Below, piece by piece: positions 1 to 14,020 of a stretch of 24,467 nucleotides of DNA. The translations under genes and the position numbers were made by a program. The DNA comes from a virus. Each line of letters opens with the position of its first letter. The first letter of the stretch is position 1. The notes beneath the pieces were generated by a model. The model had not been told where the DNA came from, did no database searches, and saw only the letters and a list, made by a program, of their open reading frames with translations. The stretch spans positions 1 to 24,467 of IMG/VR virus record IMGVR_UViG_3300008262_002934. One strand, given 5' to 3'.

Positions 1-2696
1 CCATGTTGTATACTACGAATATTTGTTTCTAATTCTGGAAAATGTCTAACGATACTATCCCACATGATAGCACTGTTCTTTTCATTTGCTTCAGCAGCCA
101 TACGTGCAAGGTCTGCTAATTGTGCAGCCGCTCTTGCTTTTCTATAACTTAATTTTCCTGGATTAAGTCCAGGAGGCATGACCATTGGATCGTTTGGATT
201 TTGCGGATCCATTTCAATTGGTGATTCTGAAATAGTTTTCTTAGCTGCCTTTGCTCTTTCTTTTTCCAACCATTTGTCAGATTTGGCTTTGTCTTTGGCA
301 ATTTGCTCTTCTGGTGACAATGGTTTATTTTCTTTACGTTTAGACAAACCTGCTCTCGCACTTGCTGTATTGGCACGAGCTTCGTTAGTCTCATCACCGG
401 CTGCTTTTATTGCGGCATTGCGTTGATTTAATCTTCCAATGGTACTATTTGGATTGACATCTAGTGTTCCTGATTGAAATTTATCTCTTACTGGTTGTAA
501 AGGTGATTTAGGGTAAGCAGTATCACCGTACTTTACTTTATCATTTACAGGACTTTGGCTTTGGAAAGCTGATTTTAATTTGTCTAAGAATGATTGTTGT
601 TCTTCAAAAACACCGTATGCGTGAACAATTGATTCAGACAGATTCATTTTCTTTGCTTCTTTTTCTAAAGAAGCTTTTCTTCTTGCTAGTTCTGCTTTTA
701 ATTCTGGATCTTTATGTGTATGCTTGTCCATCTGGATATCTTGCAGAGCCTTACGTTTTGCTGTTAAATCTTCTTTGTCTCGTAGTTTTGATTCATTCAT
801 AGAATCTACTTCCTTACTAATAGGAGCCTTTCCTGGAACTTTTTTAGTTACTTGAACATTTTGTTGTTGAGGTGCTTGAGGCTGTTGTTTAACAGGAGCT
901 GTTTGGGCTGTTGGTTTTTCATCTTTAATCCCCAAACCTTCTCTTGTTGCTTGATATAATGTTTTACCGTTTACAACGATATCAGGACCAACTCCTGTAT
1001 ATTGCTGGAATTTTTGCTCGTCACCATCGGTGGCTGCTTTTCGAGCTTTAGTTCCACTAAAGCCAGTCACTCCCTCTGAATCAGGATCACGCTGACCGGC
1101 ACTTTCAAATTTAATAACAACATGCTCTCTTGCACCAGCTGGATCAGTACTGCGTATGGGTCCACTGTTCCAACTGCTTAGTATTTTTTCAATGCTGCCT
1201 TTTTCTTTGCCTAATCTATCACTGCCTGCAACAAAAATCATGTTGCGATATCCTTTACTATATAACCAATTTGCCGCATATATTGGGTTTTGTACAAAAT
1301 CTTGAACAATATGATCTGCGGAGTTTGGATATATTTGTGAAACAAATTGTGCTTTTACATTTGGATCTAAAGGATCATCTTGTCCAACACTGTTACTCAA
1401 AAACACAAATGCTTGATCACCACCAAGTTCTAATGTTTTATTAATAACAAGTCCGTGTCCCATTGTTGGAGGGTTCATACGACCAAAACAAAACACAGCT
1501 AACGGCATTTTGCTCTTAGCTTCAATTTCTTCATCTGGTACACGATGTTTAGCAAAATTAGCACGACTAAAACCTAAACGATCAATTAATTTTAGTTTAT
1601 CTTTGCCTGAACCAAATACGTAACCTTCGTGTGCATTAACACCGTCAGTTATAGCAATAATTTCACTACCTTGTTGTTGTGTGTCAATTTGTTGTTTGAT
1701 ATGGGTTTTTAATTCTGTAATTGCGGCCCACATGGTCCAAATTCCTAATAGTCCTGGACCACCACCTTGTTCTTGATATAACCAACCGTCTTGTTTAGTG
1801 CCCAAAAATTTATTTTGTGCAGTGTCATTTAAACGCTCTTTTAGAAATTCTAAAAATCTTGGAACAATATTACCAGATATATCATCCTCTTCAAGCATAC
1901 GTGTGATAAAAGGTCCCATAGCAGTTATTACTGCTTTACCCTTCATTGCTGTTAGATCTGAAATAAATTTATCAACGGCTGTTCTGTGTTGACTAATAAT
2001 AGCTTTAGTTTGATTTAATAGAGCTGAATTAATTCCAACTTTTGGTTTGTCTTTCATTTCACCTACAAGAAAAACAATTCCTTCATTTTCTCTTAAACCT
2101 TTTAAGCCAATTAATGGTTGATCTGATTGACCAAGACCAGGAATAAAAGTATGTACCGCAATACCACCAATACTACGTGCAATCTGGTCGCTTAATGTAT
2201 TACCACGTCCAGGAGTATCATCAATTTTAACACGGTATTCTACAGTGTTAGGTTTAAAAACAAAGTATCCATCAGAAGTTTTAGGAGTACCAGTCCACAT
2301 TAGGTCTCCCATCCAATATTGGTCTTTTACATTGGGAATAATTTTATCTAATGTAGGACGTAATGCGCTTTCTGTTTCCCAAAGATTACCACGATTAGCT
2401 TCTCTAGATATATCATAATCTTTAATGGACATAAATTCCATAGCACCTTTGACTACTTTGTCATACATGTGCTTGTCCATGAAAACAAGTTTACCCGTAC
2501 TATCTCTACCAAATACTACTGCTGGAAATCCGTCCCATTTAACGCTAATTGTACTTGGATCTTTTTGTAAGCTGGATAAATCTGCCAAAACTCTGTCAGC
2601 ACCTGCACTACCTTGTGAAATAATAAGGTCTTCTGGATGGTCAATACCTTCCATAATAATATTTTTAGCAGGTTTAAACAGTTCAAATAAGTTCAT
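1..2696 (-). CDS. Ligase-like (KxDG) domain fused to HxGH-type nucleotidyltransferase, with capsid-targeting-like N-terminus; partial
   Basis: The frame is open from ATG at 2696 to the left edge (898 codons, C-terminus missing). Residues 1-16 look like a T4 capsid-targeting peptide (Glu5, hydrophobic pair, then I-M-E before Gly17). Residues 51-64 carry V-K-W-D-G with downstream F-G-R-D, matching motif I of covalent nucleotidyltransferases (ATP-dependent ligases and capping enzymes); K53 would be the adenylated Lys. Y-W-M-G-D-L at 127-132 resembles ligase motif III. Residues 404-414 read FGRMNPPTMGH, the phosphate-binding HxGH-type motif of cytidylyl/adenylyltransferases, and GFSGTKAR at 545-552 matches the family's second signature (ISGTxxR). 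After about residue 560 the chain is a charged, Gln/Lys/Ala-rich linker. The N-terminal region resembles the phage family DUF6267 from memory. It is the last visible gene of the 5654-1 cassette, 17 nt after its neighbour. Substrate is unknown; the ligase assignment is less secure than the HxGH one. Confidence 0.75.
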   Translation of the reverse strand, partial: MNLFELFKPAKNIIMEGIDHPEDLIISQGSAGADRVLADLSSLQKDPSTISVKWDGFPAVVFGRDSTGKLVFMDKHMYDKVVKGAMEFMSIKDYDISREANRGNLWETESALRPTLDKIIPNVKDQYWMGDLMWTGTPKTSDGYFVFKPNTVEYRVKIDDTPGRGNTLSDQIARSIGGIAVHTFIPGLGQSDQPLIGLKGLRENEGIVFLVGEMKDKPKVGINSALLNQTKAIISQHRTAVDKFISDLTAMKGKAVITAMGPFITRMLEEDDISGNIVPRFLEFLKERLNDTAQNKFLGTKQDGWLYQEQGGGPGLLGIWTMWAAITELKTHIKQQIDTQQQGSEIIAITDGVNAHEGYVFGSGKDKLKLIDRLGFSRANFAKHRVPDEEIEAKSKMPLAVFCFGRMNPPTMGHGLVINKTLELGGDQAFVFLSNSVGQDDPLDPNVKAQFVSQIYPNSADHIVQDFVQNPIYAANWLYSKGYRNMIFVAGSDRLGKEKGSIEKILSSWNSGPIRSTDPAGAREHVVIKFESAGQRDPDSEGVTGFSGTKARKAATDGDEQKFQQYTGVGPDIVVNGKTLYQATREGLGIKDEKPTAQTAPVKQQPQAPQQQNVQVTKKVPGKAPISKEVDSMNESKLRDKEDLTAKRKALQDIQMDKHTHKDPELKAELARRKASLEKEAKKMNLSESIVHAYGVFEEQQSFLDKLKSAFQSQSPVNDKVKYGDTAYPKSPLQPVRDKFQSGTLDVNPNSTIGRLNQRNAAIKAAGDETNEARANTASARAGLSKRKENKPLSPEEQIAKDKAKSDKWLEKERAKAAKKTISESPIEMDPQNPNDPMVMPPGLNPGKLSYRKARAAAQLADLARMAAEANEKNSAIMWDSIVRHFPELETNIRSIQH

Positions 2697-2713
2697 AATA
2701 TGTATTTATTTGT

Positions 2714-3547
2714 TTAACTTTGCGGGAAAACTTGACTTAACTTTGCTGGATCATTCTTTAGAGCGTCTCTAATTCCAGAAATGCTAGACATATCTCTTGC
2801 AGTGGCTTGTGGGCCTAATAGTATTTTTGCAATATCGTTTTTGTTGATAGCAACTACTTGATTGGTTTCTCTATCTACTAGTCCCCTGTCTGGACTGTAC
2901 TGTAGGCTTCCTTTTTCCTCTCCAGTTTTTGGATCTACAAAAGTAGATCTACTGGCTAGTTTAACTAATGTTGGATAAACGTCCGTGAATAGTTGTCCGC
3001 CTTTCATACCTGGGTCTCTAGTGAAATCGTGTGCGTGTAATTCCCATGCGCTCTCAGGACGAACAATCAAATCTACTGAATGACTTTTACCGTCAGCACT
3101 ATATTCTACAGTAAGTGTTCCTGGATCAGTCGGAAGCCCATTTTGAGTCATGTAAGATGCTAACGCCCATTTACTGGCAGCTAATTCTAATCTTGCTTTT
3201 TTATTTGGATCAGCTAAAGTGTTAGCCATGGCTTTTGGACCAAGTGGTTTGGGACTTGCTTTATTATATTCTTCTATGTTTGGTGGAAAACTTCTTAAAA
3301 GATTTTCTGGATCTATCATAATGTCAATGTCGCCGCTGTCATCTCTCCCACCGCCACCATACGGATGTTCAGGATCAAAACTACCAGCACCACCAGCAGT
3401 CCAACCGGCCTTTAGTTTAGCTTTTTTCAGTATTGGATCTAAAATAGATTTGGCTTTTAGAAAGGCAACTTTGTCTACTCTAGATATTTCAATACCTTGC
3501 TTGGCAAGCCTTTTTCCACTTTCAAATAATAGTTCAGTTATTTTCAT
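2714..3547 (-). CDS. Pol-beta-type nucleotidyltransferase with capsid-targeting-like N-terminus
   Basis: 277 aa. The start MKITELLFES fits a T4 capsid-targeting peptide, with L-F-E at 7-9 as a possible prohead-protease site. The catalytic signature of the DNA polymerase beta nucleotidyltransferase superfamily is visible: G-S at 55-56, then a Gly-rich stretch, D-I-D at 73-75 and a third acidic strand S-V-D-L-I at 157-161 (D159). Such enzymes transfer NMP from NTP to RNA, protein or small molecules; the target cannot be read here. The ATG overlaps the upstream stop as TAATG, so it is translationally coupled to the 125-aa gene. The second half (from about residue 165) has no domain I recognise. 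Confidence 0.78.
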   Translation of the reverse strand: MKITELLFESGKRLAKQGIEISRVDKVAFLKAKSILDPILKKAKLKAGWTAGGAGSFDPEHPYGGGGRDDSGDIDIMIDPENLLRSFPPNIEEYNKASPKPLGPKAMANTLADPNKKARLELAASKWALASYMTQNGLPTDPGTLTVEYSADGKSHSVDLIVRPESAWELHAHDFTRDPGMKGGQLFTDVYPTLVKLASRSTFVDPKTGEEKGSLQYSPDRGLVDRETNQVVAINKNDIAKILLGPQATARDMSSISGIRDALKNDPAKLSQVFPQS

Positions 3548-3924
3548 TATACACCGTACTTGTTCTTTTTAATTTTTGCCACAGGACTAACAGTATTGGT
3601 AGTTTTTAATTCTTGGCTCTTTAGATCTCCGTGTGTTAAATCTTTCCAATTTGCTCCCACTGCCTTATAGGCTTTTTTAAGCATTTCTTGTTCTTGAGAT
3701 GTATAAGGATGAGTAGTCTTGCTCTTATCAGTCCAACTTTTAGCATCTATTTCAGGATCGTTTGTTCCATCTGTACAGGCAAGCGCCATACCTAGACGAT
3801 ATGAAACATAATCGCTATTTCGTCTTTCACCATCAGTATATAAATTTATACCAGCAGCCGACTGGCCCTGTCTATTGGTGATTTTCTTTTCTGATACTTC
3901 AGTAATAAATTCTTTTGCTCTCAT
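3547..3924 (-). CDS. Small protein with capsid-targeting-like N-terminus, function unknown
   Basis: 125 aa. MRAKEFITEV opens it, with Glu5, the hydrophobic pair F-I, and I-T-E at 7-9 as a likely prohead-protease site. The rest is hydrophilic and Lys/Thr-rich, with a short central segment around YRLGMALACTDG and a basic C-terminus. No catalytic motif is visible. It sits between the two nucleotidyltransferase genes, joined to both by TAATG stop-start overlaps, which argues for co-translation and a related role. I do not recognise a named family; an internal head protein is the best inference. Confidence 0.7.
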   Translation of the reverse strand: MRAKEFITEVSEKKITNRQGQSAAGINLYTDGERRNSDYVSYRLGMALACTDGTNDPEIDAKSWTDKSKTTHPYTSQEQEMLKKAYKAVGANWKDLTHGDLKSQELKTTNTVSPVAKIKKNKYGV

Positions 3925-4937
3925 TAGAATAATCCCTTAACCATTTCAAGACCACTTAAAATCTTTTGTTTGTCTGCCTCAGCACGTGCCTGCGCCTCTG
4001 GTGTTGTTGCTTTATCACGCTTTTTGCCTTGTACATCTATCATAGCTTTTTCTTCGTATCGTTGTAAAAATTTATTTAAGAAATCCTGTCCTGATGAAAA
4101 ATTGCTTAAATCATTTTTACCAAACATGCCATTTGCTTGGGCACTGGCAGCAAAGCCTTTAACAGAGTTTACTAATGTAACAATTTTAACATCATTTATA
4201 TTATTGCCAGGAAATTTTGACAACAACGGATCAATTTTAGGATTATTAATACCCATTCTCTTTGCAAGATATTTAAATGTATCTAATACAAACGTTTCTG
4301 GTTCAATAGTAACAGTTATTAGTTGTGTTCCTTTTTGCTTACTAAATGGAACACGTTGATCATCAATAACTTTTAATTGTACTCCAGCATGTTGTATACT
4401 CATGTCTAATAATTCACCAAATACACTAAACATATTACCAAATAACATGCCTTTAACACCACGCTCTGGAGTTACACGTGCCGCACCCCATTTGGCTAGT
4501 TTACCTGGGTGCCACATAAAATCTACTTGGACATATTGATCACGTCCAACTTGTATGATAGGATGTCCTGGTTTACTTTCACTAGTATCTATATAATTAA
4601 CTTGACCACTTTTTGCAAATTGATCAGTTAAATCATTCCAGTAACTGGTAAATTGTGCATTTGTTTCGTTTTCTTTGATTGGCGCAATCATTTGAAGATC
4701 AATGTCGCCGTAAATGTTATCTGGTTTTTCTACTTCGTCTTGTTCATAATATGCAGTACTACCTGTTGGTTTACCACGCTGTATTGATGGTATACCTTGT
4801 GAATTAGTGTAATTATTGAAGTCCTTAACAAATTGATCTACCACACCAAGAGCCACACGTACTACAGCAGGTGTTAACTCTGTACTCTGTGTTTTTGTGG
4901 TATCCCACCCGCCTTCAAATAATTCTTTAATACGCAT
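3924..4937 (-). CDS. Pol-beta-type nucleotidyltransferase with capsid-targeting-like N-terminus
   Basis: 337 aa. The N-terminus MRIKELFEGG has Glu5, L-F and a short L-F-E (6-8) cleavage-type site. Residues 59-60 (G-S), 78-80 (D-I-D within Y-G-D-I-D-L) and 139 (D in V-Q-V-D-F) form the three-part active-site signature of the Pol-beta nucleotidyltransferase superfamily, better conserved here than in the 277-aa protein. The C-terminal half is probably helical and includes a charged Lys/Ala/Glu-rich end (about 295-330). It starts 8 nt after the peptidase gene. The two nucleotidyltransferases in this cassette differ around the catalytic residues, so they are not a recent duplication. Substrate unknown. 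Confidence 0.8.
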   Translation of the reverse strand: MRIKELFEGGWDTTKTQSTELTPAVVRVALGVVDQFVKDFNNYTNSQGIPSIQRGKPTGSTAYYEQDEVEKPDNIYGDIDLQMIAPIKENETNAQFTSYWNDLTDQFAKSGQVNYIDTSESKPGHPIIQVGRDQYVQVDFMWHPGKLAKWGAARVTPERGVKGMLFGNMFSVFGELLDMSIQHAGVQLKVIDDQRVPFSKQKGTQLITVTIEPETFVLDTFKYLAKRMGINNPKIDPLLSKFPGNNINDVKIVTLVNSVKGFAASAQANGMFGKNDLSNFSSGQDFLNKFLQRYEEKAMIDVQGKKRDKATTPEAQARAEADKQKILSGLEMVKGLF

Positions 4938-4945
4938 ATTGGACC

Positions 4946-5332
4946 TTATTCAAATACTTCTGGAAACTTCTGACCAAAATTACGCATTATTATTCCTGCC
5001 ATTGCATTGGCTTCATTTTCTTGTGGGCTACCAGTATCGCCTACATTATCATCTTCTAACTGTCCTTCTAAATCTTGTTTATAATGTGTTAGTTCGTGTG
5101 CTAATGTTCTAAAAATATCTACTGGGTGTCTATCTTTGGTTGCCAATATAATTGATTGTTTTCCTGGCTGATAACCCCCAAAGGACTTGTGATCAATTGA
5201 GTATTGTTTATCGTTAACAAGATTTATTTCAGGCAACGATTCAAGACCTAATTCTTCAGAACAATGTTTTAGAAACATGTTCAATAATTCAGGCTTTATA
5301 ATACTCTCAATCAGTAGTTCTTGAATTTTCAT
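4946..5332 (-). CDS. Small HExxH zinc metallopeptidase with capsid-targeting-like N-terminus
   Basis: 128 aa. After a leader MKIQELLIES (L-I-E at 7-9) comes a compact domain with H79-E80-L-T-H83 in the context TLAHELTHYKQ, a typical zincin helix, and downstream E-N-E-A-N-A (105-110) that can supply the third ligand Glu, as in gluzincins. This predicts a zinc-dependent peptidase of minimal size. The gene overlaps the upstream 115-aa gene by 26 nt. A protease in a group of probably packaged proteins could act on the host after injection or inside the prohead; the sequence does not decide. Metal site well supported, biological target unknown. Confidence 0.78.
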   Translation of the reverse strand: MKIQELLIESIIKPELLNMFLKHCSEELGLESLPEINLVNDKQYSIDHKSFGGYQPGKQSIILATKDRHPVDIFRTLAHELTHYKQDLEGQLEDDNVGDTGSPQENEANAMAGIIMRNFGQKFPEVFE

Positions 5333-5654
5333 CTTTCTTTGGGCCTTTGGTATTGATAGTTAATAAATTTCCTGCCAGTTCTTTTCGCATTTTAATTGGA
5401 AACATTTTGTTAGGATCTTTTTTAAACTCTTTTTCTTTATAGAACTTTAAGCATCCTTGATTGATTGCTTTCATGAAGTCTTCCGCTTCAACATCTTTGC
5501 CTTTTTTAATTTTTGACACAAGGGGAAGAATGTGTTCTTTGTATAGTTCATCATCGTCAAGAATAAAGCCCATTAAATCTTTTTGTAGATCGGTCTCAAT
5601 CTTAGCGTCATCATCATCCGAGTTTGCTTTGCTGAAGAATTCAAGTAATTTCAT
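5307..5654 (-). CDS. Small acidic/basic protein opening the capsid-targeting-like cassette
   Basis: 115 aa, first gene of the block. The start MKLLEFFSKA shares Glu5 and the following F-F with the other five proteins but has no clean (L/I)-x-E site after it, so cleavage is doubtful. An Asp run follows (12-16), then a helical, Lys-rich body. No known domain recognised. A weak AGAG ribosome site precedes the ATG. A late-promoter-like ATAAATA lies 56 nt upstream, so the cassette probably starts here. Confidence 0.7.
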   Translation of the reverse strand: MKLLEFFSKANSDDDDAKIETDLQKDLMGFILDDDELYKEHILPLVSKIKKGKDVEAEDFMKAINQGCLKFYKEKEFKKDPNKMFPIKMRKELAGNLLTINTKGPKKDENSRTTD

Positions 5655-6210: not shown

Positions 6211-6918
6211 TTAAGTGTTTACTTCGCTTTTTAGTACAAATTCTTCTGACTTATTCAAATGATCGCCCATAATCATTAGAGCCATAGCAGCCATTTTTTG
6301 ATCTTTGGCATAAAAATAATTTCCATACATCATAGGATAAGTTTCACCTTCGAGTATTCTTTTGGTACTTTTTGGAATGTGTATCCTGCCATCCTCAAAA
6401 TTTTTAGCCCAATTTAAAAAAGAGTCCATATTTTCTTTTTTGAACTCACCATTTTTAAAATGTACTTTGTACCTGTAACCGGCTAAGGGAAGACGTTCAC
6501 AAATAATTTTATTTTTATTAGTTAATAGAAAATCTGCTTGCTCAGTGCCAGCAGGTCGATGTATTTCAACAACATATTTTTGTAATTGAATAGATACTTC
6601 TTTAATTAATTTCTCACTATTTGTAAAAATAGCTGTACTCCCGCCTTCAGTCCTAATTTGATTAGGAGCTAGAGTTAAGATGTCCTCAAGTTTATATGCT
6701 ATTTCAATTAAATTATGCCTATTAGAAATTATTGTCTGTGTTGAAGACTTAAGCCAAGTACTAGAACTATTGTACATTGGCTTAATAGTTTGTATGTATT
6801 CAATGCCACGCCTGTGGAGAGAACTCAACCCTCCACATTCTATGACAATTTTAAAAAGCCATTTTTTATAAAATAGCTTTTTAGTTGTACACTCTTTAAT
6901 CTTCAATGATTTCTTCAT
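6211..6918 (-). CDS. Protein of unknown function after clpA
   Basis: 235 aa from ATG at 6918. An upstream in-frame start at 6966 exists but would lie deeper in clpA, so 6918 (MKKSLKIKE) is preferred; it overlaps the clpA stop by 23 nt. The N-terminus is very basic. A central segment holds K-I-I-C-E-R-L-P-L-A-G-Y-R-Y-K-V-H-F, suggestive of a beta-hairpin with conserved aromatics, followed by a helical C-terminus. No known catalytic motif or family is recognised. Position suggests it rides on the dnaJ-def-clpA transcript. Confidence 0.65.
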   Translation of the reverse strand: MKKSLKIKECTTKKLFYKKWLFKIVIECGGLSSLHRRGIEYIQTIKPMYNSSSTWLKSSTQTIISNRHNLIEIAYKLEDILTLAPNQIRTEGGSTAIFTNSEKLIKEVSIQLQKYVVEIHRPAGTEQADFLLTNKNKIICERLPLAGYRYKVHFKNGEFKKENMDSFLNWAKNFEDGRIHIPKSTKRILEGETYPMMYGNYFYAKDQKMAAMALMIMGDHLNKSEEFVLKSEVNT

Positions 6919-9172
6919 CTTGAACTGGTAAACTTGGTGCAATTGGTAGTGGATCCATGTATTCAAATACTAGATCATTGTTTACATACGCTACCTGTAC
7001 AATACCACCGTTAATTAATCGACCAAATAAGATTTCTCTACTTAGAGGACGCTTAATTTTATCATCAATTACTCGTTGCATTGGTCTAGCACCCATCTTA
7101 GGATCAAATCCTTTTTCAATTAAGAATTCTTTAGTGCTATCAGTCAATTGTACAAACACATTTTTATCAGAAATTAGAGAATTCATTTCTTTGATAAATT
7201 TGTCTACTACCTTAATCATAACACTATGTTCAAGTTTCTTAAACTTAATAATGCCGTCCAATCGATTACGAAACTCTGGAGCAAAGAATTTATTGACAGC
7301 TTCGTCAGTTGCACCAAGTTTGTCTTGACTACCAAAGCCAATGTTCTTCTTTTCACCATCAGCGGCACCCAAGTTACTGGTCATAATAAGAATAGCGTTA
7401 CGTGCATCTGCTTTCTTGCCATTGGATCCAGTTACAAACCCGTTATCCATCAGTTGAAGTAATACGTTGCTTACATCTGGGTGTGCTTTTTCAATTTCGT
7501 CTAACAATAATACACAATTTGGATTTTCTTGTAGTGTAGTAATTAACTGTCCTGCGTTATCTTCGAAACCAACATATCCTGGAGGAGCACCAATAAACTT
7601 AGCAACAGAGTGCTTCTCTTGGAATTCACTCATATCAAAGCGAACAAGTTTAATACTCATTTTTTCAGATAGCACTTTGGCAGTTTCTGTCTTACCACAA
7701 CCAGTTGGGCCTACAAATAAGAAACTACCAATGGGTTTATTGTGTGATTTCAAACCAGCTTGTGCAATATAAATCTTGTCTAGTAATGATTCAACTGCTG
7801 TATCTTGTCCAAATACTTCAGACTTAATGCTTGTTTCTAAATCATGTAAGACTTTGGTTTCTTTTGCGGCAATCTGTTCTAACGGCAGACCTGTAATCTT
7901 TGCTACTTCAAATACGATCTCATCGTGATCAACTATACCACCTTCTTCATCTTTAACTTTAAAACGTGCTGATGCACAATCTATCAAGTCAATGGCCTTG
8001 TCGGGTAGCTTTTTATCACTCATATATTTGATAGAATATTTGACACTATCAACAATAGCTTGATTGGTGATTTTAACACCATGATGTTTTTCGTAATACT
8101 TACGAAGACCTTTTAAAATCTTAATACATGTTTCTTCATTAGGTTCGTCAATAGTTACACGTTGGAATCTGCGCATCAACGCACGATCCTTTTCAAAGTG
8201 TTTGCGATATTCTTCCCATGTAGTACTTGCAATAACCTTAAATCCGCCTTTGGCTAAAGCAGGTTTTAACATATTTGCCATATCATTACTTTGACCACTG
8301 CTTGCACCTGCACCGTTCATCATATGTGCTTCGTCAATAAACAAAATTGCTTTTTTACGTTTTTGGATAGCAGTAAGTACAGTTTTTAGTCGCTCTTCAA
8401 AGTCACCGCGATATTTGGAACCAGCAAGTAATGAACTAATGTCTAACGTGTAAACTGTGTGGTCTTGGATAAACTTAGGAACATTGCCTTCAACAATTTT
8501 ACGTGCTAATCCTTCTGCAAGTGCAGTCTTACCTACACCTGGATCTCCAATTAACATAACATTGGCTTTGTGACGTCTTGCAAGTACTAATTGCATCTCT
8601 TCAATTTCTTTGTCACGTCCAATAACTGGATCAATTTGTTTTTGCTTGACCTTGTTGTTTAGATTGGTACAGAAATTATTAATGATAGCTTCTAGTTTGT
8701 TCTCAGGAACATTTTCGTTTTCTTCGCTCAATTGATTTAAATTTTCTTTGTTTAAGTAATCAATAAATTTGTCTTTTTCAATGCCAGAACTACGTAGATA
8801 GAAGGCAGCATGACTCTTCTTTTCGTGCAATATGCTTAGGAAACAATCTAACGGTTCAATGGTAGTTCTTCCAGCAAATAGTGTTTGTGTAAATGCTCTA
8901 TTGAGCATTCTTTCTACGCTGTTTGTTTTCTTTGGCCTAGAATTTAAATTTACGTCAACAATACTAATAAGTTCGTTGTTAATATAGTTTTCTAATTTAG
9001 AAACTAGATCATCAACTTTGATGCCATAGTCAGTTAGAATACGATTAAAAGTTGGATTACGAACCATACTATAGAGAAAATGCTCTAATGTAATGTATTG
9101 GTGTTTATGGTTTATGGCTGTAAGTACAGCATTTTCAAAAATTTGTTCTAATTCTTCATTTGGTTCAAGCAT
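6896..9172 (-). CDS. clpA: ClpA-like AAA+ unfoldase
   Basis: 758 aa, equal in length to E. coli ClpA. An N-terminal Clp_N repeat domain (about 1-145) precedes two AAA+ modules. D1 has Walker A GDPGVGKT (209-216) and Walker B F-I-D-E (280-281). D2 has Walker A GPTGCGKT (488-495) and Walker B L-L-D-E-I-E-K-A (D558-E559). I-G-F at 611-613 in D2 matches the IGL/IGF loop that docks on ClpP, so the protein should couple to the host ClpP; no phage clpP is seen here. Its role would be unfolding chosen host or phage proteins for degradation. It overlaps def by 8 nt. Confidence 0.95.
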   Translation of the reverse strand: MLEPNEELEQIFENAVLTAINHKHQYITLEHFLYSMVRNPTFNRILTDYGIKVDDLVSKLENYINNELISIVDVNLNSRPKKTNSVERMLNRAFTQTLFAGRTTIEPLDCFLSILHEKKSHAAFYLRSSGIEKDKFIDYLNKENLNQLSEENENVPENKLEAIINNFCTNLNNKVKQKQIDPVIGRDKEIEEMQLVLARRHKANVMLIGDPGVGKTALAEGLARKIVEGNVPKFIQDHTVYTLDISSLLAGSKYRGDFEERLKTVLTAIQKRKKAILFIDEAHMMNGAGASSGQSNDMANMLKPALAKGGFKVIASTTWEEYRKHFEKDRALMRRFQRVTIDEPNEETCIKILKGLRKYYEKHHGVKITNQAIVDSVKYSIKYMSDKKLPDKAIDLIDCASARFKVKDEEGGIVDHDEIVFEVAKITGLPLEQIAAKETKVLHDLETSIKSEVFGQDTAVESLLDKIYIAQAGLKSHNKPIGSFLFVGPTGCGKTETAKVLSEKMSIKLVRFDMSEFQEKHSVAKFIGAPPGYVGFEDNAGQLITTLQENPNCVLLLDEIEKAHPDVSNVLLQLMDNGFVTGSNGKKADARNAILIMTSNLGAADGEKKNIGFGSQDKLGATDEAVNKFFAPEFRNRLDGIIKFKKLEHSVMIKVVDKFIKEMNSLISDKNVFVQLTDSTKEFLIEKGFDPKMGARPMQRVIDDKIKRPLSREILFGRLINGGIVQVAYVNNDLVFEYMDPLPIAPSLPVQDEEIIED

Positions 9173-9671
9173 AATGTTTTACCTTCTTTGATTTTTTAAC
9201 AGCCAGAGCCCATTTTAACTGACTAAGTCTATCTTTAAAAACTACTCCGTTTAAATGGTCCATTTCATGTAAGAAACAAACACAGTTATACCCTTCAAGT
9301 TTATCTGTTTTCTTTTCTCCATTCTTATCAAAGTACTCAGCAACTATCCATGATGGTCGCTTAACATTAGCGTAAACTCCAGGAAAACTCAAACATCCTT
9401 CTTCTAGCATACGTAAATCAGTACTGCAATCAACAATAACTGGATTGAATACTGCAAAACTATTTTCAGGCATAGAAACATGTCCCATGGTAAACATTCT
9501 AGTTTTGATACCTACTTGCGGAGCCGCAAGTCCAATCCCATTGTTAGCGAACATGCAAGCCAGCATGTCTATTTCTAATTCTTTAGGATCCATTATTGGA
9601 TTTTCAAAGTCAAAATCTGGCATGACTTCATCTAATATTGGATTTGGATATTTTATTATTGTTAATGCCAT
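9165..9671 (-). CDS. def: Peptide deformylase
   Basis: 168 aa. All three deformylase motifs are present: G-I-G-L-A-A-P-Q (45-52), E-G-C-L-S (91-95) and H-E-M-D-H (135-139), giving metal ligands C93, H135, H139 and catalytic E136. It removes the N-formyl group from nascent proteins. Unlike some short phage forms it keeps a tail of about 25 residues after the third motif, ending in a basic stretch. It sits between dnaJ (8-nt gap) and clpA, in what looks like a protein-maturation operon. Confidence 0.95.
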   Translation of the reverse strand: MALTIIKYPNPILDEVMPDFDFENPIMDPKELEIDMLACMFANNGIGLAAPQVGIKTRMFTMGHVSMPENSFAVFNPVIVDCSTDLRMLEEGCLSFPGVYANVKRPSWIVAEYFDKNGEKKTDKLEGYNCVCFLHEMDHLNGVVFKDRLSQLKWALAVKKSKKVKHYA

Positions 9672-9679
9672 ATTAATAT

Positions 9680-10546
9680 TTAAATTTTATTTTTTATTTG
9701 CTCAACTAAATCAAGAACTTCTGCTGACAAGTGTGTAGGAATTTGTATATTAACTCTTACATAAAGTTTTCCTACATTGCCTTTATTATCTTTCATACCT
9801 TCATTTTTTAATCCAAGGGTAGTTCCGGCTTGTATTCCAGGTGGAATAGTAACTTCAAGTCTTCTACCATCCAACGTGATAAATGCTATACTTGTACCTG
9901 TAATTGCTGAAAAACAATCTACCATTACATCTCTTAATAAATTCATTCCTTCTCTAACAAATGCAGGATGTGGCATGACATTGATATTTACTAAAAGATC
10001 GCCAGGCGGAAGCCCAGCATTTGACCTATCACCCATGCCCTCATATCTGATAGTTACCCCATTGTCTACACCTTTAGGGATTTCTATTTTAATAGACCTT
10101 ACGTTATTACCAGGATAAGTTAATTCTAACTCTTTAGTAACCCCTGTATAAACTTCTTCTAAACTAACATTTAGATTAATATTAAGAGATTTATTTTTTC
10201 TAGGAGGTTGGTTACCCCATTGCGGGCCACCAAAGTTAAATCCAAATCCTCTTAAAATATCATCCATGTGCGGATGACCACCAAAATGGAATTCAAAAGG
10301 ACTACCGCTACTATGGAAATGCTGTCCCTGTCGTTGGTTTGGATTGAGTGGATCAATTCCTTGATCTACCATCATACGTTTGTCATTGTCGCTCAATATG
10401 TCGTGAGCTTCGTTTATTTCTTTAAATTTACCTTGGTCGCCCCCGCGGTCAGGGTGATGTTTCATAGCCATTTTTCTAAAGGCTTTTTTTATATCATCCT
10501 GCGTTGCTGTTTTTGGTACGCCCAATATTCCATAATAATCTTTCAT
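9680..10546 (-). CDS. dnaJ: DnaJ/CbpA-like Hsp40 co-chaperone
   Basis: 288 aa from ATG at 10546; a TTG 18 nt upstream is in frame but falls inside the -10 element and is rejected. The J domain carries the H-P-D tripeptide at 31-33, followed by a Gly/Phe/His-rich segment (about 73-110) and two beta-sandwich substrate domains. There is no Cys-rich zinc finger, so it is type II (CbpA-like). It would stimulate host DnaK. No Shine-Dalgarno sequence precedes the ATG, and the promoter at 10553-10581 puts the likely transcription start at or next to the A of ATG. Confidence 0.93.
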   Translation of the reverse strand: MKDYYGILGVPKTATQDDIKKAFRKMAMKHHPDRGGDQGKFKEINEAHDILSDNDKRMMVDQGIDPLNPNQRQGQHFHSSGSPFEFHFGGHPHMDDILRGFGFNFGGPQWGNQPPRKNKSLNINLNVSLEEVYTGVTKELELTYPGNNVRSIKIEIPKGVDNGVTIRYEGMGDRSNAGLPPGDLLVNINVMPHPAFVREGMNLLRDVMVDCFSAITGTSIAFITLDGRRLEVTIPPGIQAGTTLGLKNEGMKDNKGNVGKLYVRVNIQIPTHLSAEVLDLVEQIKNKI

Positions 10547-10552
10547 AGCACT

Positions 10553-10581
10553 ATTATATAACAAAGAAAGGCAACTGTCAA
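10553..10581 (-). promoter_or_regulatory. Perfect-consensus sigma70 promoter for dnaJ operon
   Basis: Minus strand: TTGACA (10576-10581), exactly 17 bp, TATAAT (10553-10558). Both hexamers match the bacterial consensus at every position. ATG follows the -10 after 6 nt. The -35 lies inside the hairpin of the preceding transcript's terminator. Expected to be used early by unmodified host RNA polymerase. Confidence 0.85.
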
Positions 10582-12637: not shown

Positions 12638-12901
12638 CTATTTAATTGAATCGTAAATTTTCTTGTTTTCCTGATACCACTCGTTCCAAGCATCAACTTT
12701 AGATTTGCATTGATGATACTTGCTATAATTTTTCACTACAACTTCTAAAGTTTTGCTTAGTTGGGTAGTTCCTTCTGGAGTTTTTTCTAGATCAGGACAT
12801 GCTTCTGCAAGTTCTGGCGGAACGGTAGGAAATTTTAATGTTACTGGAACTGTAGTAGAACAGCCGGTCAAAAATACAAGCGAAACAAGCAAATATTTCA
12901 T
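12638..12901 (-). CDS. Outer-membrane spanin (Rz1-like lipoprotein)
   Basis: 87 aa. The signal peptide ends in lipobox F-L-T-G-C, lipidated Cys at 14. The short mature chain is Pro-rich at first (T-V-P-V-T-L-K-F-P-T-V-P-P), as in many o-spanins, with two further Cys. It overlaps the preceding membrane/coiled-coil gene by 4 nt, as expected for an i-spanin/o-spanin pair. It would link the outer membrane to the inner spanin for the last step of lysis. Confidence 0.75.
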   Translation of the reverse strand: MKYLLVSLVFLTGCSTTVPVTLKFPTVPPELAEACPDLEKTPEGTTQLSKTLEVVVKNYSKYHQCKSKVDAWNEWYQENKKIYDSIK

Positions 12902-13380
12902 TTTGTTTCTCCTGAGGTGGTTTCTGATTTAGTTGGATCACTGGCTGCTTTGTTAAGAATATCAATAGCAACAGGATCAACCTCGCACTTCGCATCAATT
13001 ACTTTTTCTACTTCTTTGATTCGATCAATGTACTCAATTTCTTTTTGTTTAATAACTTTGGTTTTATATACAATTTTTTCTTGTATAACGGTATTAACTT
13101 GAGCACTTTTTTCTTCTGCTATTCTAATTTTTTCTTCAAGTTGCTTTACCTTATCTCTCCAGCTCATCTCTACTCCGTAGCCACCAAATAGATATGTACC
13201 AGCTAATAATACTATAATGCCGATTAATTCCGCTGGGAGTTTATATTGTCCCATCAATGGAATCCATTTAACTAATTTGCTGGCTACGTATAATCCAGCA
13301 CCAATGATCATCAAAATGTAAGTAATCCAAACAAAAATACTATCTGGAATTAAACTCAACATCCATTGAAATTGCCACAT
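12898..13380 (-). CDS. Inner-membrane spanin candidate (membrane plus coiled coil)
   Basis: 160 aa from ATG at 13380, which has GGAG about 10 nt upstream and starts 1 nt after the endolysin stop; a longer start at 13434 would overlap the endolysin and is rejected. Two hydrophobic segments (about 13-35 and 48-66) are followed by a charged, Lys/Glu/Ile-rich coiled coil (about 72-135). An i-spanin normally has one membrane segment; two would change the topology, so the role rests mainly on the coiled coil and the overlapping lipoprotein gene. Confidence 0.68.
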   Translation of the reverse strand: MWQFQWMLSLIPDSIFVWITYILMIIGAGLYVASKLVKWIPLMGQYKLPAELIGIIVLLAGTYLFGGYGVEMSWRDKVKQLEEKIRIAEEKSAQVNTVIQEKIVYKTKVIKQKEIEYIDRIKEVEKVIDAKCEVDPVAIDILNKAASDPTKSETTSGETK

Positions 13381-13381
13381 C

Positions 13382-14020
13382 TTAGTGTGCTCCAAAAACG
13401 TGTAGTGCGTGATTGTAATGCTTGATACGGTCATCTAATCCAATGTAACCGCCGTTGATCTTTTTGGTCATTAATTTAATGTCGCCTGCATCTGCTTGAA
13501 CATTTAAATTATTGGTTTCCCAAAACCAGCAAGCACTTTGTACTGCCCCTTCAAATGTCTGCAAATATTCTGCGGCCTCTTCAACTGGTATTTCTAAACT
13601 GGCAGCAAACCAAGTATAGTTGTCTTTACCTGTTAACTGAATTAACCCACGTCCGCAGTAACGATATCCGTCACCGCTGGCCTCGTCGCCGTTACCCATA
13701 CGATTGCAATAAACACGATTAGCAATGGCTTCTTGTTTATTTGGCAAACTAGCGTAACGATTAGCTATTGCATCATCTGGAAAATACTTAGGAAAAATTT
13801 TACGCAATGTTGCGGCTTTGTAATTTAAATTTTCTTTCAAAGCTCGAAATCCGCCACTCTCATGAGCGCATTGTGCTAGAAATGCTGCCACACGTTGTGG
13901 AGTATTAATTTCATATTCTGGTAAAATTTCGTCTAAAGCATGAAACCAGTGATCCAAATAAGGATTACCAGGAATAATTTGTGCTAGTTGTTCTTTTTTA
14001 AAATCAAATGTAAAACTCAT
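13382..14020 (-). CDS. Glycoside hydrolase family 19 endolysin
   Basis: 212 aa. A-H-E-S-G-G-F (52-58) supplies the catalytic acid E54, E63 is a candidate second catalytic residue, and Y-C-G-R-G-L-I-Q-L-T-G-K-D-N-Y is the typical GH19 substrate-binding motif. In phages this fold cleaves peptidoglycan glycans rather than chitin. No signal peptide or membrane anchor, so it needs a holin to reach the wall. It heads the lysis block. Confidence 0.9.
   Translation of the reverse strand: MSFTFDFKKEQLAQIIPGNPYLDHWFHALDEILPEYEINTPQRVAAFLAQCAHESGGFRALKENLNYKAATLRKIFPKYFPDDAIANRYASLPNKQEAIANRVYCNRMGNGDEASGDGYRYCGRGLIQLTGKDNYTWFAASLEIPVEEAAEYLQTFEGAVQSACWFWETNNLNVQADAGDIKLMTKKINGGYIGLDDRIKHYNHALHVFGAH

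Follow-up and report, generated by a model that had tools for sequence, protein, structure and literature searches.

Predicted head-packaged proteins and modular precursors with prohead-protease-type joints in large T4-like phages

The virus record IMGVR_UViG_3300008262_002934, analysed here over its whole length of 24,467 bases ('the window'; the record holds no sequence beyond it), carries on its minus strand one contiguous block of six genes, genes 1–6 (Table 1), whose products share a short N-terminal leader. These proteins and their relatives are very probably head-packaged internal proteins and tandem-module precursors, cut by a prohead protease of the phage T4 gp21 family at [LIVM]-x-E. 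It is also likely, on a broader reading, that large T4-like freshwater phages deliver early effectors as modular polyproteins: one leader would load the chain, the prohead protease would cut every joint inside the head by the rule of capsid maturation, and modules would move freely between leader genes and sites within longer proteins. The outcome would be a quickly evolving set of injected proteins, legible in sequence from its joints. Packaging, cleavage, injection and host targets we infer from sequence comparison and structure modelling.

In the proposed pathway, the leader would dock the late-made precursor onto the prohead core, and the protease would take the leader off by cutting after [LI]-x-E; the mature enzyme would stay behind with the packaged DNA and be delivered at infection. 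Longer proteins would consist of effector modules in tandem, each border marked by an [LIVM]-x-E joint; one leader would load several modules and the protease would part them inside the head. In this way, several enzymes that act on the host may be brought in with the DNA by way of a single protein. The predicted modules comprise nucleotidyltransferases, a domain with a KxDG motif, a cytidylyltransferase and a metallopeptidase; in relatives the set also includes GNAT acetyltransferases, kinases of zeta type and enzymes that cleave peptidoglycan. Once delivered, they would probably act on the host within the first minutes of infection. A search of open-licence papers found no published description of head-packaged polyproteins cut by a prohead protease.

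Leaders in the window and in related phages

Several lines of evidence support this reading. First, the six open reading frames (ORFs) singled out in the initial annotation are present, and the shared start that it described, M[KRN]..E[LF][LFI], was recovered in all of them. This strict pattern occurs in 6 of the 34 window genes called, with gene starts that depend on our home-made gene caller, compared with 0.04 expected by chance and a maximum of 2 in 1,000 shuffles of residues 2–13; as had been stated, it is confined to the block. The initial annotation was also right that five leaders close in (L/I)-x-E: IME with Glu at residue 16, LFE at 9, ITE at 9, LFE at 8 and LIE at 9 for genes 1–5, so that five of the six proteins have a short (7–20 residues) leader with a gp21-type site at its end. 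In five of the six, Glu5 sits in an [LI]-x-E of its own (LFE, ITE, IKE, IQE and LLE), a possible second cutting site comparable to T4 Alt (MELITELFDE). The leaders are not a repeated DNA element, because both codons and upstream DNA differ among the six genes, which rules out a shared DNA element at the gene starts; the likeness is at the protein level.

Second, the leaders recur in related phages. In the closest relative, L101 (99% identity to the window in gene 2), the block extends past the window end and comprises nine leader genes among 12 consecutive genes; the syntenic block of the large contig G001 spans genes 149–161. Counted with a slightly wider pattern than that used for the window, leaders in related large contigs numbered 12 of 269 genes in G001 (0.72 expected), 11 of 245 in G002 (0.66), 9 of 205 in G010 (0.62), 15 of 340 in G006 (1.07) and 5 of 248 in G008 (0.56), and 9 of 398 in G005 (0.90) and 7 of 306 in G007 (0.86), several of the matches in these last two looking like chance. 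When proteins from 106 related loci and five stitched contigs were clustered, leader-bearing members made up less than 5% of 164 of the 187 families and at least half of 11.

Third, the site is conserved in orthologues whose leaders vary in sequence and length, with [LIV]-x-E remaining immediately before the domain. Gene 4 orthologues begin MRIKELFE, MKSYEFLIE, MRAFEFIIE, MKIFEILRE or MKIHEFINE, each followed directly by GGWDT, and gene 2 orthologues begin MKITELLFE, MRAREFVRE, MNFREFFTE or a stump such as MTIQE, followed by [SA]GKRL. Among distinct contexts, which come from loci partly related to each other and are not fully independent events, [LI]xE precedes GIDHPED in 22 of 22 gene 1 leaders and [LIV]xE precedes GGWD in 50 of 50 gene 4 contexts (one unrelated pattern match excluded); for gene 2, P1 is Glu in 18 of 19 and [LIVMF]xE is present in 17 of 19. 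The leader is found in 15/15 homologues of gene 3 and 10/10 of gene 5, and the leader pattern in 14/16 of gene 6.

Joints inside long fused proteins

Fourth, the same site is kept where modules are fused (cuts are marked by a slash). Fusions of gene 2 to gene 1 retain it as KIIAE/GIDHPED (L084) and VLME/GIDHPED (L103), and a fusion of gene 4 to gene 2 as QAVAE/AGKRL (L099). Where extra modules stand between the leader and GGWD, the border reads VRE (L043), VQE (L055 and L045), LGE (L050, L051, L056 and L072), VKE (L076) or LYE (L028), and in G010 a Pfam-recognised GNAT domain is joined to gene 4 as MKILDILSE/...MVIE/GGWA. A 771-residue protein of L096 runs leader, metallopeptidase, ISE, ISE, LTE, GNAT, LSE, LSE, VNE, basic tail. 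Modules common to different architectures have mostly [LIVM]xE borders, and modules are found both in 'leader + module' genes and at internal positions. Neighbouring genes show a similar split and fused pair: the two leader genes that lie side by side in L015 correspond to a single ORF, joined by PMFE/, PLDE/ or PIME/, in L003, L006, L014 and L081. Multidomain polypeptides of two to 15 domains include window gene 1 and proteins of L096, L234, L235 and L246.

By sequence comparison, the strongest single test of the joint rule is the junction of X4, a basic module of 57 residues with 458 matches and none in annotated phages. In 80 loci, two of them from contigs already used (L096 and L098), P1 is Glu in 55 of 55 distinct upstream contexts and P3 is hydrophobic in 46 of 55, with contexts ranging from 8-residue leaders (MKITDLIE/NFADG) to more than 1,000 residues of other sequence. 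In a systematic test, in which mature N-termini of leader proteins were mapped onto internal positions elsewhere, Glu was the junction residue in 72% of the 92 internal contexts, versus 2–16% at neighbouring offsets; many of the misses trace to just two fusions, where the alignment start was misplaced. A border test based on blast ends gave a blurred signal (86 of 296, 41 expected) and was superseded by these junction-anchored tests. We also considered that Glu might merely be the first residue of each module, and ruled this out: several unrelated modules share the Glu, and P3 is hydrophobic too.

One joint peptide, QGVAE, was counted 57 times across the ORFs, usually with Gly or Ala next, versus a count of 0 for each of three control words; a single 1,340-residue ORF contains it five times together with one PGVAE. 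The recurrence suggests a copied linker. The (QG)VAE/ joint recurs in giant ORFs of L234, L232, L233, L303, L278, L299 and L302.

By these criteria window gene 1 looks like a multi-piece, polyprotein-like precursor rather than a single enzyme, with predicted cuts after residues 16, 635, 688 and 824. A relative of its last module, C4, stands as a separate leader gene in L238 (MKINELLTE/APID, 108-residue frame). Of these cuts, those after 16 and 824 are the better founded, since 635 and 688 are known as borders only in close gene 1 relatives. No peptidase domain was recognised in window gene 1; the separate zincin gene, gene 5, lies nearby.

Table 1. Coordinates of the block, its predicted sites and related features (window positions unless a contig or locus is named)
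Feature	Position	Strand	Description
Gene 1	3..2696	minus	898 aa, incomplete at window edge; leader, DUF6267 + predicted cytidylyltransferase, three C-terminal segments
Gene 1 leader	2649..2696	minus	MNLFELFKPAKNIIME; aa 1–16; predicted site IME/GIDHPED
Glu635 codon	792..794	minus	Predicted internal site MNE/SKLRD; relatives MNE/T, LVE/S
Glu688 codon	633..635	minus	Predicted internal site LSE/SIVHA; relatives LSE/S, IAE/S
Glu824 codon	225..227	minus	Predicted internal site ISE/SPIEMD; relatives LNE, VSE, LKE, IDE, ILE, VAE before [AS]PI
C4 module	3..224	minus	aa 825–898, cut by window edge
T4-late-promoter-like motif	2702..2710	minus	AATAAATAC; gap before gene 1
Gene 2	2714..3547	minus	277 aa; putative Pol-beta-type nucleotidyltransferase, motifs GGAGS...GDIDIMID...VDL
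Gene 2 leader	3521..3547	minus	MKITELLFE/SGKRL
Gene 3	3547..3924	minus	125 aa
Gene 3 leader	3898..3924	minus	MRAKEFITE; EFIxE core shared with T4 IpII/IpIII MKTYQEFIAE
Gene 4	3924..4937	minus	337 aa; predicted Pol-beta-fold nucleotidyltransferase (model + fold match)
Gene 4 leader	4914..4937	minus	MRIKELFE/GGWDT
Gene 5	4946..5332	minus	128 aa; zincin-like metallopeptidase, HELTH
Gene 5 leader	5306..5332	minus	MKIQELLIE/S
Gene 6	5307..5654	minus	115 aa; leader MKLLEFFS without terminal [LI]xE
Module copying mature capsid N-terminal arm	L003 18528-19340; L006 18348-19163; G001 118340-118576		Leader gene or C-terminal module of longer leader protein
T4 gene 61.1	L226 18966-19130		gp61.1, 54 aa; leader MKTFKEFIKE

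Head protease, capsid sites and alternative readings

Fifth, the protease and its predicted capsid substrate are present among the relatives. The specificity of gp21 is [LI]-x-E, and ten residues of T4 IpIII suffice for packaging (PMC9026906). A gp21-family (S77) protease was detected in 7 of 12 related large contigs and 8 of 12 X4-carrying contigs. At the position of the T4 gp23 site (FLTE/AEIGG), the major capsid proteins (MCPs) of related contigs read LxE/[STN]: YLAE/SATAGSTSAGN, SLAE/SATAGATSAGN, YLVE/SPTAGATSAGN, ILFE/SATPGSTSAGN, LLKE/STAGTTTSGN, YLAE/TASAGTTSAGN, YLSE/SATAGATSAGN and YLKE/NASSGSTVSGN; in four further contigs no capsid protein was found within the stretches fetched. The T4 leaders of IpII and IpIII (MKTYQEFIAE/A), Alt, gp24 (MAKINELLRE/S) and gp21 (MNEPQLLIE/T) agree with the window type. 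In the cultured Kyanoviridae phage Melnitz, the homologues of DUF6267 and of the cytidylyltransferase begin MINFSKYITE/ and MKKFSEIIE/.

Some leader proteins copy a piece of the capsid protein. In G001 gene 161 (MKIQEIITE/TATAGSTSASN) the mature capsid arm is repeated right after the protein's own site, and a small leader protein of G006 (MKISELLGE/TATAGATSAAN) has the same arm copy, the S/A difference between the two matching that between their MCPs. Likewise T4 gp61.1, MKTFKEFIKE/DMVAGDSGGNPENISIGTTSGAVVNKGP, has a near-perfect capsid-targeting leader, after which its sequence resembles the mature N-arm of gp23, NIAAGQTSGAVTQIGP; it may be an unrecognised internal head protein.

These findings give good support to the capsid-targeting interpretation of the initial annotation through the relatives' proteases, the MCP sites, the T4 leader match and, above all, the invariant [LIV]xE at domain borders. 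Its picture is incomplete for gene 6, which has no end site, and for gene 1, which looks like several pieces. Several observations weigh against our reading. Besides gene 6, inside the block the relatives encode proteins without a leader (Dps-like, 5′-nucleotidase-like and a protein of about 97 residues). The DUF6267 homologue of cyanophage P-HM2 (MSKNTHLEHLED) has no leader either, and because of this the DUF6267 domain can work without one. No gp21-family protease was found in the 24-kb window fragment, and the S77 match is absent in 9 of the 24 related contigs, which may be incomplete. Tolerance of the protease is assumed, because joints often carry Val or Met at P3 and the MCP sites seen carry Leu. 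Finally, the initial annotation regarded such a leader on a cytoplasmic protein as speaking against packaging, and for a loose version of the motif there is a case: T4 lysozyme, MNIFEMLRIDE. Because lysozyme fits, the leader motif alone proves little. In the T4 control, the strict pattern recovered IpII, IpIII, gp21, gp22, gp24, Alt and gp61.1 together with about ten unproven or unrelated proteins, and missed IpI; motif-only scanning as proof was dropped after this control.

The best-surviving alternative, which we hold to be unlikely, is that the proteins are head-internal and processed but have a structural job, as prohead core filler or in DNA packing or capsid assembly, rather than acting on the host. 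T4 IpIII does have a role in head morphogenesis (PMC9026906), several modules (X4 and C2) are short and basic, and G001 gene 161 is little beyond a leader and a copy of the MCP arm. Against this, predicted catalytic folds or motifs are kept: the Pol-beta fold with invariant Asp residues, HExxH, GNAT, zeta-type kinase and VanY.

It seems improbable that the joints are cut not by the gp21 homologue but by a host protease or one embedded in the precursors themselves, such as their zincin domain. Zincin-like modules do occur in some precursors (L096 and L246), and autoproteolysis by such domains was proposed for polyvalent proteins (PMC5512222); however, most joint-bearing precursors have no recognised zincin, the joint resembles the rule of T4 gp21 as well as the MCP site, and 15 of the 24 related contigs tested encode a gp21 homologue.

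Quite improbable, too, is a leader that is a docking tag without proteolysis, with [LI]xE belonging to the docking helix. It would account for gene 6, which has a leader and no site, and a T4 IpIII leader with Asp at position 10 still targets although its processing is blocked (PMC9026906). Yet borders that lie hundreds of residues past the N-terminus, after unrelated sequences, retain [LIVM]xE, and no N-terminal docking helix exists there. Coincidence or a composition effect, with amphipathic starts favoured for translation and no packaging role, would explain why the loose motif matches some T4 cytoplasmic proteins, but is very hard to credit given the shuffle controls, the bimodality of families and the internal junctions.

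Predicted activities and known systems

The enzyme assignments of the initial annotation fared unevenly. Its nucleotidyltransferases are best supported by gene 4, whose structure model (mean pLDDT 88) is good from residue 12, with residues 1–11 unfolded and the leader outside the predicted fold. The best Foldseek matches were Pol lambda and beta (probability up to 1.00, best E = 3e-3), with MiD51, CdnC and cGAS at lower probability, and D78, D80 and D139 are invariant, as DxD...D metal ligands; predicted fold and ligands support a Pol-beta-type nucleotidyltransferase. Gene 2 is putatively of the same type on motifs, with no Pfam family and an empty PDB sequence search. Profiles of genes 1, 2 and 4 gave chance matches only in PDB sequence searches, genes 2 and 4 had no protein match among annotated phages, and a nucleotide search of annotated phages returned no match to the window. 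The peptidase is supported for gene 5 as metallopeptidase-like by its HExxH (HELTH), with phrog_87 at E = 2e-5 and Pfam matches below cut-off. In gene 1, residues 18–383 match DUF6267 (E = 3e-33) and 391–595 the cytidyltransferase family phrog_3041 (E = 2e-32). The DUF6267 model is poor (pLDDT 63) and a fold search gave no match; its invariant KWDG, EGYVF and KLK motifs are suggestive of a covalent nucleotidyltransferase, and it is on these that the ligase-like guess now stands.

In relatives, leaders are also found on zeta-type kinase, VanY, GNAT and GH19-like proteins, some of them below the curated cut-off. Zeta-toxin-type kinases with a leader or an internal joint lie at G006 62062-63015 and L283 1531-3168 (VSE/GIHDP; LEE/GVNDP). 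Leaders on peptidoglycan enzymes, VanY-like and GH19-like (G001 115638-116309 and 116596-117729; G006 23720-24724), suggest wall-cutting enzymes carried in the head. Three leader-bearing paralogues of G010 (12785-13540, 171280-172053 and 172050-172802) share a P-L-[WF]-R-G-T motif and are possibly ADP-ribosyltransferase-like; the one searched had no Pfam match.

As for timing, the T4-late-like motif NATAAATA lies at most 60 nt upstream of a gene start in 25 of its 35 occurrences in G001, many at structural genes. It precedes gene 1 in both the window and G001, and within the window block gene 1 only; it sits so near the start codon that what it does there is doubtful. Adjoining the block, a chaperone and modification cluster at window positions 6896-10564 encodes a ClpB-like ATPase, a peptide deformylase and a DnaJ-like protein, in the same gene order as G001 104155-107784.

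Injected phage proteins are usually found singly, by virion proteomics. If the joint rule is true, arsenals and the exact ends of their mature pieces become predictable from metagenomic sequence alone, and hundreds of related contigs are open to such prediction. Tailed phages would then have a virus-style polyprotein strategy run by the capsid maturation protease, and environmental phages without cultured hosts would yield many candidate anti-defence and host-takeover enzymes.

The nearest known system is that of T4 IpI–III and Alt, which like the window group have short N-terminal leaders closing in [LI]xE, with an EFIxE core; the gp21-family protease and gp23-type capsid sites in the window's relatives extend the likeness, and delivery with DNA is predicted. 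T4, however, has four such genes at three places, whereas the window group forms a contiguous block with several enzyme types, tandem modules with internal sites and far longer proteins. T4 gp61.1 in turn resembles G001 gene 161, a leader followed by a short gp23/MCP-like mature N-arm, with no counterpart in the window. The inner-body proteins of phage phiKZ and ejection proteins of SPN3US are likewise found in the head, processed there by a diverged protease of gp21 type, and ejected (PMC5694885), but SPN3US propeptides are long (more than 100 residues in several proteins, compared with 8–20 in the window group) and the proteins are different ones. Polyvalent proteins, as described in the consulted sections of Iyer et al. 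2017 (PMC5512222), are also multidomain and thought to be packaged and injected, and they share with the window group GNAT, Pol-beta nucleotidyltransferase, zincin, zeta kinase and peptidoglycan enzymes. Their release by embedded zincin peptidases was proposed there, and an operational analogy to RNA-virus polyproteins noted. Those sections describe no leader, whereas the window group has prohead-protease-type borders and modules that also occur as separate leader genes.

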